DNA of 64,000 nucleotides from Burkholderiales bacterium. GTDB taxonomy: Bacteria > Pseudomonadota > Gammaproteobacteria > Burkholderiales > Burkholderiaceae_C. This document shows positions 3,921 through 62,489 of this stretch, one piece after another. The stretch is from assembly GCA_947381415.1 (NCBI GenBank), contig CANCVB010000002.1:62001-126000 (forward strand), read 5' to 3'. The translations under genes were made by a program, and so were the position numbers. Within the stretch, counting starts at the first letter, position 1. Each line of letters begins with the position of its first letter. The notes beneath the pieces are model-generated. The model was not told the origin of the DNA. It made no database searches and saw nothing but the letters and a program-made list of their open reading frames with translations.

Positions 3921-4523
3921 TCAGCCCATCAACAAGCCATGGGTGCGGGCAAAGTGCAGGGTTTGGGTACGGCTTTTCACACCTAAGCGACGGAAGAGAC
4001 GCCACAGGTGCACTTTGACGGTGTGCTCGCTGATACTGAGTTCAGCGGCGATGTCACGGTTGGACAAGCCACGGTCCAACATCAGAATCAGTTGCTTTTG
4101 ACGCTTAGAGAGTTTGATGTCGCCAATCACCACCACATCGGCGTCTTCATCGACGTCATCAGACTTCATGATGTCTTGGATGGCAGCGGAGATTTCGGCT
4201 GTATCGGTAGACTTTTCAATATAGAGGTCTGCACCCGCTTCCAAGCAAGCATCGCGCGCTTCGCCTGAAGGCATGGCTGAGAGCACCACCAAGGGGATTT
4301 CGGGGTACATTTTTTTCACATCCGAGATGGCGGTTGCCCCTTTGACGCCAGGCAACAGCAGATCGAGCACAAACAACTCGGGTTCTCCGTTTTTAATCAA
4401 TGCGGCCTGTAATTCGCTGAATTTTTCCAATTCGACCACCTTGGAGGCGGGGCGCAGGCGGCGCAGCAACATGCCAATCATTTGGCGAACCATTGGGTGG
4501 TCATCAATGACGTAAAGACTCAT
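3921..4523 (-). CDS. LuxR/NarL-type response regulator
   Basis: This two-domain transcription regulator (200 aa) has an N-terminal receiver domain with acidic pocket Asp7-Asp8, phosphoacceptor Asp54 (in VLDLLLPG) and the conserved Lys in IEKS. Its C-terminal LuxR helix-turn-helix is about residues 133-195 (LSKRQKQLILML, LSNRDIAAELSISEHTVKVHL). Known family members bind DNA as phosphorylated dimers. No sensor kinase gene adjoins it: the neighbour 15 nt upstream on the same strand is trpS, and the convergent neighbour is ccmI. Its partner kinase and targets cannot be read from this window. Confidence 0.88.
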   Translation of the reverse strand: MSLYVIDDHPMVRQMIGMLLRRLRPASKVVELEKFSELQAALIKNGEPELFVLDLLLPGVKGATAISDVKKMYPEIPLVVLSAMPSGEARDACLEAGADLYIEKSTDTAEISAAIQDIMKSDDVDEDADVVVIGDIKLSKRQKQLILMLDRGLSNRDIAAELSISEHTVKVHLWRLFRRLGVKSRTQTLHFARTHGLLMG

Positions 4524-52392: not shown

Positions 52393-52480
52393 TGGTGCCG
52401 AAAGCCGGAATCGAACCGGCACGGTGTTTTGCACCGGCAGATTTTGAATCTGCTGCGTCTACCAATTTCGCCACTTCGGC
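52393..52480 (-). tRNA. tRNA-Leu (CAA anticodon)
   Basis: On the minus strand, an 88-nt tRNA starts GCCGAAG and ends CTTTCGGC-ACCA, with a matched acceptor stem. The anticodon loop TTCAAAA gives anticodon CAA. The long variable arm and GGTTCGATTCC T-arm are typical of class II tRNA-Leu. The 3' CCA is encoded. It decodes UUG. It is divergent from cysM, and no integrase is adjacent to suggest use as an attachment site. Confidence 0.96.
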
Positions 52481-57304: not shown

Positions 57305-60202
57305 TCAATTCAATCGTTTCAATTGGTCTTCAATCTTATTCAATGTGGCTTCAAAGTCTGCCACACGTTGACGCTCTTGGGCGATGACAGCAGGCGGTGC
57401 TTTGGCCACAAAAGCTTCGTTGCCCAGTTTGCCATTGGCTTTGGCGATTTCATTTTGCAGCCTGGCCACTTCTTTGCCCAGGCGAATCTTTTCAGCCGCC
57501 ACGTCCACTTCCATGAACAAGCACAAACGGGTTTCACCGACCACCGCCACGGGCGCGGCTTGGGCCGCAGTTTGCCATGCAACTTGGTCGTCAAACACCT
57601 TGACGTCGCTGAGCTTGGCCAGTGCTTGCAACACGGGTGCGTTGGCACGCATGAACTCGGCATTGCCCAAAGCAAACATGGGCATGCGGGTGGAGGGGGA
57701 GACGTTCATCTCACCGCGCAAATTTCGGCAGGCATCGACCAATGATTTCAACTGGTTCACATTGGCGATGGCTTGTTCATCGACCTTGTTCATCTGCGCT
57801 TCGGGGTAGCGGGCAATGCTCACGGACTCGCCAGCCAAACCCGCCACGGGCGCGACTTTTTGCCAGAGTTCTTCGGTGATGAACGGGATGATGGGGTGTG
57901 CCAAACGCAAAATGGCTTCCAAGGTGCGAATCAGTGTGCGGCGGGTGGCGCGCTGTTCTGCAGGACCGCCGGTTTGGATTTGCACCTTGGCAATTTCCAA
58001 ATACCAATCGCAATACTCGTTCCACACAAATTCATAGATCGAGGTGGCCACATTGTCCAAGCGGTATTCTTCAAAGCCCTTGGCCACATCGGCTTCCACC
58101 TGTTGCAACACAGACGAAATCCAGCGGTCGGCCTGGCTGAAATGCATATAGCCATGGGCTTTGCCGCCGGGTGCGCAATCGGCCTTGGTGTGGTCCATCA
58201 GGCCACAGTCTTGGCCTTCGCAGTTCATCAGCACAAAGCGGGTGGCGTTCCACAGCTTGTTACAAAAATTGCGATAACCCTCGCAGCGTTTGCTGTCAAA
58301 GTTGATGCTGCGCCCCAAACTGGCCAAGGCCGCAAAGGTGAAGCGCAAGGCATCTGCACCATAGGCGGGAATGCCCTCGGGAAATTCTTTTTGTGTGTTC
58401 TTGAGCACCTGGGGAGCTGTTTCGGGTTTGCGCAGGCCTTGTGAGCGTTTCTCCAGCAGGGGTTCGAGTGCGATGCCATCGATCAAGTCGACCGGGTCCA
58501 GCACATTGCCCTCGCTTTTGCTCATCTTTTTACCCTGGGCATCGCGCACCAAGCCATGGATGTACACATGCTTGAAAGGCACCTTGCCTGTGAAATGCGT
58601 GGTCATCATGATCATGCGGGCCACCCAGAAGAAGATGATGTCGTAGCCCGTCACCAACACGCTGGAGGGCAGGTACAAATCTTTGTCTTCCGGGCTCAAG
58701 GTGCTGAACGGCACCAAGGCACTGGAATACCAGGTGTCCAACACGTCTTCATCGCGCCTGAGCGTTTTGCCAGGGGCTTGGGCTTGCGCATCGGCTTCGT
58801 TGTGGGCCACGTACACATGGCCTTCTTCGTCATACCAAGCCGGAATTTGATGGCCCCACCACAGTTGACGTGAAATGCACCAATCGGTGATGTTGTTCAT
58901 CCACTGGTTGTAGGTGTTGACCCAGTTCTCGGGCACAAACTTCACCTCGCCTGACTGCACCGCATCGATGGCTTTTTGCGCAATGCTTTTGCCGGTGGGG
59001 TCTTGGTCGCTGACTTTGTTCATGGCCACAAACCATTGGTCGGTCAGCATGGGTTCCACCACTTGGCCGGTGCGGGCGCAAATGGGCAGCATCATCTTGT
59101 GGGGTTTGATCTCTTGCAAAAAGCCCTGTGCATCCAAGTCCGAGAGCAAGGCTTTGCGCGCTTCAAAGCGGTCCATGCCTTGGTAGGCGGCAGGGCCGTT
59201 CTCATTCACCTTGGCATCCAAGGTGAAGATGGTGATAAGGGGCAAGTTGTGGCGCTGGGCACAGGCGTAGTCGTTGAAATCGTGTGCACCTGTGATCTTC
59301 ACGCAACCAGACCCAAACTCGCGGTCCACAAAGTCGTCGGCAATGATGGGAATTTGCCGATCACACAAAGGCAGGTCCACCATCTGGCCCAGCACATGTT
59401 TGTAGCGTTCGTCTTCGGGGTGAACCGCCAATGCACCATCGGCCATCATGGTCTCAGGGCGTGTGGTGGCAATCACCATGCCTTTTTGCATCACGCCATC
59501 GATCATCTGTGGACCTTTGGCAAAGGGGTAGCAGATGTAGTGCATCTTGCCTTCGGACTCGGTGGCTTCCACTTCCAAGTCAGATACCGCACTCATGAGC
59601 ACCGGGTCCCAGTTCACCAAGCGCTTGCCTCGGTAAATCAAACCTTGTTGGTAGAGCTTGACGAAAGTGTCTGTGACCACGGGCGACAGTTTGTCGTCCA
59701 TGGTGAAGTACTCGCGGCTCCAGTCCACACTGTCGCCCATGCGGCGCATTTGTTGGGTGATGGTGTTGCCGGATTGTTCTTTCCACTCCCATACCTTGCT
59801 GATGAAGTTTTTGCGAGCGTCCACAGGGGTGGGACCCATGTCGTGGCGGCTGATGCCCTGACCTTGAAGCTGGCGTTCCACCACAATTTGCGTGGCGATG
59901 CCCGCATGGTCGGTGCCAGGAATCCACACGGTGTTGAAGCCGCGCATACGGTGGTAACGCGTCAGGCTGTCCATGATGGTTTGGTTGAACGCATGACCCA
60001 TGTGCAAAGTACCCGTCACGTTGGGCGGCGGCAACTGGATGGCAAAGGCCGGTTGTTCTGCTTGGGGCTGGCCCGTACCTCTGTAGCCTGCGACGCCGTA
60101 GCCGCGCTTTTCCCACTCAGGGCCCCAATGGGCCTCCAGGGCTGCGGGTTCAAAAGATTTGGACAGGCTGTCTAAGCCGGGCTGAGAAGGTGTAGGGGAC
60201 AT
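57305..60202 (-). CDS. valS: Valine-tRNA ligase
   Basis: This class Ia synthetase (965 aa) charges tRNA-Val. It has the HIGH motif in [17 protein letters not shown], an editing domain, KMSKS in [14 protein letters not shown], and the C-terminal ValS-type coiled-coil arm ([20 protein letters not shown]). I take the ATG at 60202 ([19 protein letters not shown]) over the in-frame start 13 codons upstream, as the N-terminus then matches the family. It is divergent from the riboswitch-controlled DadA gene. Confidence 0.95.
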
Positions 60203-60275
60203 GCTTTGCAGACGTAAGGGAGAGTCAAAAGGGAATAGCACAAATATGCCGAGATTCTAGTGTTCTGCGCCAAGC

Positions 60276-60281
60276 TATACT
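60276..60281 (+). promoter_or_regulatory. Probable -10 element for the glycine riboswitch transcript
   Basis: TATACT at 60276-60281 would put the transcription start about 7-10 nt downstream, right at the beginning of the first glycine aptamer (60291). No good -35 hexamer is found at 16-18 nt upstream (the nearest is GATTCT), so an activator or an extended contact may be needed. Confidence 0.5.
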
Positions 60282-60290
60282 GATCACACG

Positions 60291-60470
60291 TCACCGGGAG
60301 AGTGTGTTCAACAGCACCGCCGAAGGAGCAACCGCCCCGGAATCTCTCAGGCCCCAGGACCGGTGACATGTCAGAACTCTGAAGAGTTGCGGAACTTTGT
60401 CAATCCGCACACCGAAGGAGCAAGCCATCGCTTTGCGCGATGCGTGAATCTCTCAGGTCCAGCACAGAGG
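60291..60470 (+). promoter_or_regulatory. Tandem glycine riboswitch (gcvT class)
   Basis: Two similar aptamers follow each other. The first is closed by TCACCGG (60291-60297) and CCGGTGA (60360-60366). The second is closed by CTCTG (about 60377-60381) and CAGAG (60465-60469). Both contain CCGAAGGAGCAA and, later, GAATCTCTCAGG, the hallmark repeated core of glycine aptamers. The expression platform, about 60 nt, includes a potential AAGGTG/CACCTT hairpin (60485-60505) before the DadA-like gene. It occupies the 327-nt gap between valS and that gene. Confidence 0.93.
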
Positions 60471-60529
60471 GGGTGATGCGCCGTAAGGTGCGGTGCATCC
60501 ACCTTTCACTGACTTTTGGGGCTTGCTTC

Positions 60530-61798
60530 ATGAAACACATCGCCGTTATTGGTGGTGGCATCACAGGTGTCACCACAGCTTATGCCTTGGCTCAACAAGG
60601 TTTTTCAGTCACTCTGTTTGAACGCCACCGCTACGCTGGCATGGAAACGTCTTACGCCAACGGTGGGCAGCTTTCAGCCTCTAATGCGGAGGTTTGGAAC
60701 CACTGGTCTACCTTGGTGAAAGGGTTGAAATGGATGGCTCGTCGTGATGCGCCATTGTTGTTTCACCCCCAAGCCAGTTGGCACCAGTGGTCATGGCTGA
60801 CAGAATTTGTGGCGCAGTTACCGCACTATGAAGCCAATACCATCTACACAGCGCAATTGGCCATCGCTGCGCGCGCGTATTTATTCGAGTGGGCACAGCA
60901 AGAACAGATCGATTTCGACTTGAAACGCGAAGGCATTTTGCATATTTACCGCGACCGATCCAGTTTTAACCATGCAGCCAAGGTCAGTGCTTTGCTACAC
61001 AAAGGAGGACTGGAGAGGCGAGCCGTCACCCCCCTCGAAATGCGTCATATTGAACCCACTTTGCAAGGGGATTTTTATGGTGGGTTTTTCACAGAAAGTG
61101 ACAGCACAGGCGATATACATAAATTTACCTTTGGTCTGTCCAAAGCACTTCTGCGCATGGGGGTCAATACGGTTTATGACGCCCAAGTCACAGACATTCA
61201 AACCAATGGTGAACAGGTGCAATTACAGGTGCAAAGAGAAAACTCCAACGATCGCCAAACAGCAGACGCGGTTGTGATTTGCTGTGGCACCAGCAGTCGC
61301 GCTTTGGCAGCGCAGGTGGGCGATCGGGTGAATGTGTATCCCGTCAAGGGCTACTCCATCACGGTGCATCTCGACGACGCGGCCAGTCAAGCCAGTGCAC
61401 CGCAGGTGAGTTTGTTGGATGACGCCACCAAATTGGTGACCAGTCGCTTGGGCGTGGACAGATTTCGGGTAGCCGGAACCGCCGAGTTCAATGGCTTTAA
61501 CAAAGATATTCGTGCTGACCGCATTCAACCCTTGGTCGACTGGGTGGCGCAATGTTTTCCTGGCGTGAGCACAAGGCAATTCACGCCTTGGGCGGGCTTG
61601 CGCCCCATGATGCCGAACATGCTGCCCAAAGTTGGGCGGGGTAAGGCTGCGAACGTGTTCTACAACACGGGGCATGGGCATCTGGGCTGGACCTTGTCGG
61701 CAGCCACAGCTGTTGCAGTGGCCAACAGTGTTGCAGACGCAAGAAATGCCAGGGTTCCCCAAAACCACCTCAACAAGCCAGTGGCAGAACCGGCTTAG
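60530..61798 (+). CDS. D-amino-acid dehydrogenase / glycine-oxidase-like flavoprotein (DadA family)
   Basis: This FAD-dependent amine oxidase-fold protein (422 aa) has an N-terminal VIGGGITGVTTAYALAQQG dinucleotide site, the DadA-type GMETSYANGGQLSASNAEVW and a C-terminal FAD-contact GHGHLGWTLSAATA. DadA members oxidise D-amino acids (such as D-alanine) and pass electrons to the quinone pool; glycine is used by some relatives. The ATG at 60530 lies 60 nt after a tandem glycine riboswitch, which suggests that glycine, or a metabolite made from it, is the physiological substrate. The Shine-Dalgarno region (GGGG) is weak. Confidence 0.92.
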   Translation: MKHIAVIGGGITGVTTAYALAQQGFSVTLFERHRYAGMETSYANGGQLSASNAEVWNHWSTLVKGLKWMARRDAPLLFHPQASWHQWSWLTEFVAQLPHYEANTIYTAQLAIAARAYLFEWAQQEQIDFDLKREGILHIYRDRSSFNHAAKVSALLHKGGLERRAVTPLEMRHIEPTLQGDFYGGFFTESDSTGDIHKFTFGLSKALLRMGVNTVYDAQVTDIQTNGEQVQLQVQRENSNDRQTADAVVICCGTSSRALAAQVGDRVNVYPVKGYSITVHLDDAASQASAPQVSLLDDATKLVTSRLGVDRFRVAGTAEFNGFNKDIRADRIQPLVDWVAQCFPGVSTRQFTPWAGLRPMMPNMLPKVGRGKAANVFYNTGHGHLGWTLSAATAVAVANSVADARNARVPQNHLNKPVAEPA

Positions 61799-61803
61799 TC
61801 CGA

Positions 61804-62460
61804 TCAGACTTGCGCTGCAATATCGCGCAAGGCCTGCACAAACACATGGGCCGGCTGGCCACCAGAAATCAGGTGGCGGTCGTTGATGATGATGGCGGGT
61901 ACCGAGTGAATGCCTGCACTGGTGTAAAAGTTTTCTTTGGCACGCACTTCCTCTGCATAGGTATCGCTTTGCAGCACCGCTTTGGCTGCCTCGGTGTCCA
62001 TGCCAATGCCTTGCACAATAGACAACAAAACAGCGTGGGATTCAATGACCGCAGCTTGTCCTTGGTAGGCTTGCAGAAACGCTTTTTTCAAACGAAGCTG
62101 ATCCCCTTCCTGACCTTCAAGCTCCGCCCAATGCAGCAAGCGATGCGCGTCAAAGGTGTTGAAGATGCGCCCGCGACCAGTGGGGTGAAAAGCAAAGCCC
62201 ACTTCAGCACCGCGGGCCTTGATGGTTTGGTACATCTGTGCTTGTTGCTCGGCTGTCGAGCCGTACTTTTTTCCCAAATGTTCGACCAAGTCTTCACCAC
62301 CCGGGGGCATTTGTGGGTTCAGTTCAAAAGGCTGGAAATGGATGTTTGCACTGACCTCAGTCTGCAATTCATGCAGCGCTTGCTCTAGCGCACCCAAGCC
62401 CACTGCACACCATGGGCAGGCAATATCAGACACAAAATCAATTTTCATCATTGCGGTCAT
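61804..62460 (-). CDS. DsbA-family oxidoreductase (FrnE-like)
   Basis: This cytoplasmic DsbA-fold protein (218 aa) has an active site CPWC (in DFVSDIACPWCAVG), a helical insertion, and a conserved C-terminal SVPAIIINDRHLISGGQPAHVF, where the cis-Pro loop lies. FrnE relatives act in oxidative stress or thiol-disulfide exchange and also appear as polyketide-associated isomerases. The start at 62460 has AAGGAG 8 nt upstream. It lies 29 nt downstream of the hydroxylase gene on the same strand and converges on the DadA-like gene. Confidence 0.88.
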   Translation of the reverse strand: MTAMMKIDFVSDIACPWCAVGLGALEQALHELQTEVSANIHFQPFELNPQMPPGGEDLVEHLGKKYGSTAEQQAQMYQTIKARGAEVGFAFHPTGRGRIFNTFDAHRLLHWAELEGQEGDQLRLKKAFLQAYQGQAAVIESHAVLLSIVQGIGMDTEAAKAVLQSDTYAEEVRAKENFYTSAGIHSVPAIIINDRHLISGGQPAHVFVQALRDIAAQV

Positions 62461-62489
62461 TTCCAGCACTCCTTAAGGCAAGACAAATG

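Follow-up and report, generated by a model that had tools for sequence, protein, structure and literature searches.

Among the closest described systems is the tandem glycine riboswitch of gcv operons, reportedly described by Mandal and colleagues in 2004. Further targets of glycine riboswitches described in PMC2211319 and PMC3766115 include malate synthase, serC, sdaA and transporters, and the former places the malate synthase gene glcB under such a switch in Pelagibacter-like metagenome fragments. ON logic is expected of a glycine riboswitch controlling glycine-degrading genes, according to PMC6944388. No account of a D-amino-acid dehydrogenase under glycine-riboswitch control was found in a search of the open-access literature, though gene tables belonging to PMC3766115 (Additional file 5) and to PMC2211319 may contain one.

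We have analyzed a window of 64,000 nt (C2:62001–126000) from a 2,513,546-base, 40-contig, 99.9%-complete, Comamonadaceae-like genome, whose named relatives closest by the gene considered here are Comamonadaceae MAGs (82–86% identity). In this window, a tandem glycine riboswitch precedes a flavoprotein gene, and the pairing points to an alternative route for glycine use or detoxification.

Tandem Glycine Riboswitch and Locus Layout

Two RF00504 glycine aptamers have been identified on the forward strand, at 60285–60372 (66.6 bits, E 1.2e-11) and 60369–60477 (C2:122369–122477; 50.9 bits, E 1.5e-9), both scoring above the 32-bit cut-off of the covariance model. After them, in the order characteristic of the tandem type, comes one predicted hairpin and then the gene (60530–61798, +), the end of aptamer 2 lying 52 nt from the ATG of this 422-aa open reading frame. 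Aptamer 1 alone is reported by cmscan, aptamer 2 coming from the genome-wide search; the omission is probably due to the collapsing of overlapping same-clan matches, as the two aptamers overlap by a few bases. The genome-wide search yielded no glycine aptamer besides these two, and this is the sole glycine-riboswitch locus found in the genome. The riboswitch appears to be of the ordinary glycine kind, with glycine as the likely ligand.

The predicted expression platform is comprised of the 3′ flank of aptamer 2 (60456–60464, +), assigned by folding to the 5′ arm of a hairpin trapping the ribosome site, with the equivalent arm covarying in relatives; an inner hairpin (60475–60499, +); and the 3′ arm of the trap (60510–60523, +), which includes a weak Shine-Dalgarno GGGG (60518–60521) located 8 nt from the ATG at 60530. 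The upstream gene, with valyl-tRNA-synthetase domains, is divergent (57305–60241), and the downstream one, with a DSBA domain (61804–62469, –; PF01323, 105.4 bits), is convergent and bounds the transcript, which is thus most simply monocistronic. A sequence-only reading of this DNA had proposed a tandem glycine aptamer ahead of a DadA-type gene, a weak Shine-Dalgarno site, and a monocistronic transcript owing to the convergent neighbor, all of which agree with these results, the aptamers being recovered with Infernal. It had also placed a –10 hexamer before the first aptamer: TATACT, read from the sequence, is indeed present at 60276–60281 (+), but the sigma-70 scan of the locus retrieved no site with both hexamers, so a promoter at this position is plausible only. 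The terminator scan of the locus found none, and transcriptional control of the flavoprotein gene was rejected on this ground. Elsewhere in the window, a tRNA gene (56.1 bits) is found at 52396–52480 (–).

The Flavoprotein Belongs to the NF009074 Family

The 422-aa product, an FAD-dependent oxidoreductase, matches the DAO domain PF01266 (227 bits) and passes the NF009074/PRK12409 equivalog model over residues 1–404 (710.4 bits, cut-off 494); “D-amino acid dehydrogenase” is the annotation name of this family. It falls below the cut-offs of both the subfamily model NF001933 for DadA proper (PRK00711; 337.9 bits, cut-off 383) and the model of glycine oxidase ThiO (TIGR02352; 140.9 bits, cut-off 250.8), and a separate gene at C25 of the genome scores 252.8 bits with the latter.

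A structure model (mean pLDDT 85.2) was built from alignment A1 of 30 sequences out of 81 available. The closest solved structures, both by sequence and by fold, are glycine oxidases (4ysh: Z 37.6, rmsd 2.3, 339 aligned residues). L-proline dehydrogenase (Z 36.2) and sarcosine oxidase (Z 35.9) lie within 2 Z units of the best match, so the substrate is not fixed by the fold, and dimethylglycine dehydrogenase (33.0), iminodiacetate oxidase (32.3) and D-arginine dehydrogenase (31.6) follow. Both alignments have an invariant R358 in the GLRP motif; we take this arginine to be an active-site residue, equivalent to the one that binds the carboxylate in glycine oxidase. This arginine and a K-L-V-x-S-R stretch are common to the window protein and two PRK00711-type DadA proteins.

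Conservation of the Pairing Among Relatives

Among the best 80 of 274 relatives, which were retained for the analysis, a short pattern for the aptamer core matched ahead of the gene in 78, and Infernal added L073, giving 79 of 80. In the remaining locus, L062, no aptamer was found upstream of the gene by either the pattern or Infernal; upstream of position 3980 of this locus the aptamers are gone and the ribosome-site arm CUUGUUUGGAG is still there. The relatives include Limnohabitans, Polaromonas, Rhodoferax, Polynucleobacter and Janthinobacterium, as well as Stutzerimonas, Marinobacter, Halomonas and Vreelandella.

Of 200 genomes sampled from the window’s family, 33 carry between them 34 NF009074 genes scoring over the cut-off, and 31 of these genes have a glycine aptamer at most 450 nt upstream (the riboswitch state of G506, G386 and G396 having been checked on individual loci). 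The three genes lacking the switch are the second copy in G518 and those of G032 and G413, both from the window’s own genus. The latter two genomes lack GcvP and keep the gene behind an unrelated short leader with no riboswitch detected (L125, L126), so the switch is dispensable. The gene is rare in the class sample, being over the cut-off in 7 of 274 genomes; among the matches listed outside the window’s family, G222, G231 and G318 have the switch, while G236 (517.9 bits) and G091 (432.7 bits, below the cut-off) do not. More distant homologs in genomes of 0.9 and 1.2 Mb (L134, L135) are located behind an IspH-like gene, identified by eye, with no riboswitch detected.

An Infernal scan of 28 named genomes placed a switch at the gene, by coordinates, in 27 (the exception being L062). 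In 15 of the 28, including the three closest relatives of the window, this is the sole glycine riboswitch found, and at least one further glycine riboswitch is present in 12; for the gammaproteobacterial genomes, the gene’s riboswitch is the only one found in 10 out of 12. Both aptamers are retained in L032–L034. The riboswitch–flavoprotein arrangement thus recurs widely, and rather than an oddity it is a second, conserved branch of the glycine regulon.

A Predicted Ribosome-Site Trap

Folding of the relatives’ leaders pairs 10 bases past the core of aptamer 2 (e.g., UCCAGAAC) with a stretch at the ribosome site (GUUCUGGA), the resulting trap helix enclosing a variable inner hairpin. In a rule-based survey of 80 leaders (79 relatives and the window), a helix of at least 6 pairs without interruption is seen in 53, overlapping the ribosome site in 45 of these, and is lacking in 27. 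The arms covary, as in CCAAAC/GUUUGG, CCAAGAC/GUCUUGG, UCCAAAAC/GUUUUGGA and UUUCAAAC/GUUUGAGA. The duplex between a leader’s own arm and ribosome site has a mean energy of –8.16 kcal/mol vs. –6.49 (sd 0.23) for permuted pairs, and none of 500 shuffles of the 61 distinct combinations was as good as the own pairs; nor was any of 2000 shuffles with one representative for each of the 18 distinct arms, a test less inflated by relatedness than that on 61 combinations. Moreover, by eye, CCAAGGACAG faces CUGUCCUUGG over the ribosome site in the DadA leader of L128.

The covariation of the arms in relatives thus predicts a ribosome-site trap acting as a translational ON switch. In the window’s clade the candidate trap helices are among the weakest, with –4.5 kcal/mol and at most 5 uninterrupted base pairs in the window itself, –3.9 and 3 in L032, –4.0 and 4 in L033, and –2.3 and 3 in L034; outside the clade, L056 has –2.2 kcal/mol. 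For the window leader, the minimum free energy structure still has GGUCC paired to GGGCU across a portion of the ribosome site. A 7-bp match in the window, GCAAGCC (60420)/GGCTTGC (60520), was considered as the switch helix and rejected, since it is not kept in the L032–L034 leaders. The earlier proposal that glycine turns the gene on therefore gains support from the relatives, while the window’s own weak helix tells against it.

Glycine and Glyoxylate Enzymes in the Genome

A GcvP search of the window genome gave no matches, the same search being positive in 10 of 14 control genomes. The only GcvT-domain match, scanned as a fragment, scores 42.5 bits with YgfZ (cut-off 219) and 29.3 with GcvT (cut-off 300), and seems closer to YgfZ than to a true GcvT. 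The genome thus has no riboswitch-controlled glycine cleavage operon identifiable by GcvP and GcvT genes. Malate synthase G is encoded (1246.9 bits, cut-off 565), and glyoxylate formed from glycine would therefore have a known sink. The search for glyoxylate carboligase gave no match over the cut-off of 711, the best one having 330 bits, and the gene concerned passes an acetolactate synthase model.

With neither GcvP nor a true GcvT, the sequence-only view that the riboswitch controls a DadA-type gene instead of gcv holds for this genome. The arrangement is no one-off: it recurs widely, often as an additional switch next to that of gcv. The suggested check for gcvTHP with its own riboswitch elsewhere in the genome came out negative, with no GcvP match and no second glycine-riboswitch locus.

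Association With gcv Genes and Other Neighbors

The gene order gcvT–gcvH–gcvP–riboswitch–gene is observed in G409, G420 and G396 (GcvP identified by PF02347 in all three; GcvT and GcvH by Pfam in G409 and by eye in G420 and G396). A further riboswitch is present ahead of gcvT in G409, G396 and L. radicicola, and in L111 GcvP is directly upstream of the NF009074 gene. The 29 distinct riboswitch loci of 61 relatives comprise 16 before a GcvT homolog, eight before an NF009074 gene, three before a PRK00711-type DadA, one before a GcvP homolog and one at a contig end. The gene is not a general stand-in for gcv, being present in 5 of 27 GcvP-lacking vs. 28 of 173 GcvP-carrying genomes of the family; for two of the five GcvP-lacking carriers, G476 and G519, this status follows from their absence among the GcvP positives.

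No conserved operon partner was seen, as the neighboring genes vary (M20 peptidase with a TctC receptor, AidB-like, LysR with DctP, GlnD, GcvP). The neighbor survey left out 13 of the 80 loci, and nine neighbors were scanned by Pfam, one giving no match; no racemase and no sarcosine or betaine enzyme was found among these nine. An M20-family amidohydrolase homolog is directly upstream in L035, L037, L038, L044, L046, L048, L062, L078 and L108, and in all of these except L046 it stands behind a TctC-receptor homolog (the Pfam test covering the pair in L048). It is conceivable that this amidohydrolase is a glycine-releasing hydrolase.

A second subfamily, PRK00711-type DadA, is found under a glycine riboswitch in L011, L023, L026, L127 (618–726) and L128 (623–734), loci that come from further genomes of the family and from additional families within the order. 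The L127 and L128 proteins pass the PRK00711 model (498 and 487 bits, respectively); their leaders look tandem by eye, with a seemingly degenerate first aptamer, and Infernal reports one aptamer in each. In L132 (902–994) and L133 (2428–2521, –), a strong glycine aptamer precedes a gene for a periplasmic binding protein (PF13458); the source genomes, G340 and G485, have six and eight aptamer matches, respectively.

Proposed Role and Alternative Explanations

From the computed features, that is, the aptamers, the gene family, the negative GcvP and true GcvT searches, the conservation and the arm covariation in relatives, we infer glycine binding, the ON direction, the electron acceptor, the substrate and the physiological role in the following scheme. 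In the absence of glycine, the ribosome-binding site would be sequestered by pairing to the 3′ flank of aptamer 2; glycine binding would engage this flank in P1 and the aptamer core, so that the ribosome site is released and translation can proceed. The enzyme would most likely convert glycine, or a close analog, to glyoxylate and ammonia, presumably passing electrons to the respiratory chain, and malate synthase G could then convert glyoxylate to malate. With slightly more confidence than doubt, we favor glycine-induced translation of a flavoprotein that oxidizes glycine or a close analog to glyoxylate, constituting a catabolic or detoxification branch independent of the cleavage system; glycine itself as the substrate is the simplest inference. 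Against this explanation we have counted the fold neighbors with other substrates, the low ThiO score, the weak trap of the window, the 27 leaders lacking a 6-pair helix, the leaders of G032 and G413, and the separate ThiO gene.

It is rather unlikely, though deserving of serious weight, that the switch senses glycine while the enzyme acts on D-amino acids, mainly D-alanine, with D-amino-acid turnover adjusted when excess glycine disturbs the use of D-alanine in the cell wall. The family name and the GLRP arginine and K-L-V-x-S-R stretch common to two PRK00711-type DadA proteins fit such a role, and peptidoglycan and D-amino acids are the subject of glycine-toxicity papers in the reference lists of PMC6944388 and PMC5666159. 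However, several genomes have the gene immediately after gcvP and under a glycine switch of its own, the regulon is united by glycine catabolism, and a racemase is absent among the nine scanned neighbors. The neighbor scan is equally devoid of sarcosine and betaine enzymes, which argues against oxidation of an N-substituted glycine (sarcosine, iminodiacetate) that would release glycine or glyoxylate, with glycine acting as the product or pathway signal. Sarcosine oxidase, dimethylglycine dehydrogenase and iminodiacetate oxidase are fold neighbors (see above), but induction by a product would be unusual, and glycine as the substrate explains the adjacency to gcvTHP equally well; we consider this alternative improbable.

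More improbable still is an OFF switch, or a switch defunct in the window’s lineage and retained as a decaying relic. The weak trap helices in the window and L032–L034, the replacement of the leader in G032 and G413 of the same genus, and the loss of aptamers in L062 are what it would lead one to expect, but the window aptamers score well, both are kept in L032–L034, and a portion of the ribosome site is still paired in the minimum free energy fold.

The riboswitch that governs a gene is a good guide to what its enzyme does, and a glycine switch conserved before two “D-amino acid dehydrogenase” subfamilies in dozens of genomes suggests that the annotation hides a glycine-oxidizing enzyme. Such a role would explain how a bacterium without the glycine cleavage system handles excess glycine, and these loci also provide a glycine switch that is a candidate for translational ON control and whose expression platform covaries. 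A broader proposal, in our view a little more prone to fail than to hold, is that the name D-amino acid dehydrogenase is wrong for NF009074 and riboswitch-linked PRK00711-type proteins, which would be respiratory glycine dehydrogenases forming a glycine-induced, cleavage-system-independent pathway from glycine through glyoxylate to malate in beta- and gammaproteobacteria, and wholly replacing the glycine cleavage system in the window’s lineage.

Comparison With Known Systems

The window protein resembles DadA (PRK00711) as a PF01266-type flavoprotein with the GLRP arginine, and is 39% identical to the two riboswitch-linked examples compared, but it passes the sister model NF009074 and not that of DadA. 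ThiO glycine oxidase is the closest solved fold, while the protein is far below the ThiO model cut-off, and the ThiO-type gene of the genome is a separate one, at C25. As with the glcB riboswitch of the Pelagibacter-like fragments described in PMC2211319, the locus places one step of a possible glycine–glyoxylate–malate route under glycine-switch control; there the regulated enzyme consumes glyoxylate, whereas here it is a candidate producer. The switch itself has the two aptamers and one expression platform of the gcv-operon tandem riboswitch (RF00504), and is set apart from it by a platform resembling a ribosome-site trap, with no terminator found, and by its target, a single FAD amine dehydrogenase gene in place of gcvTHP.
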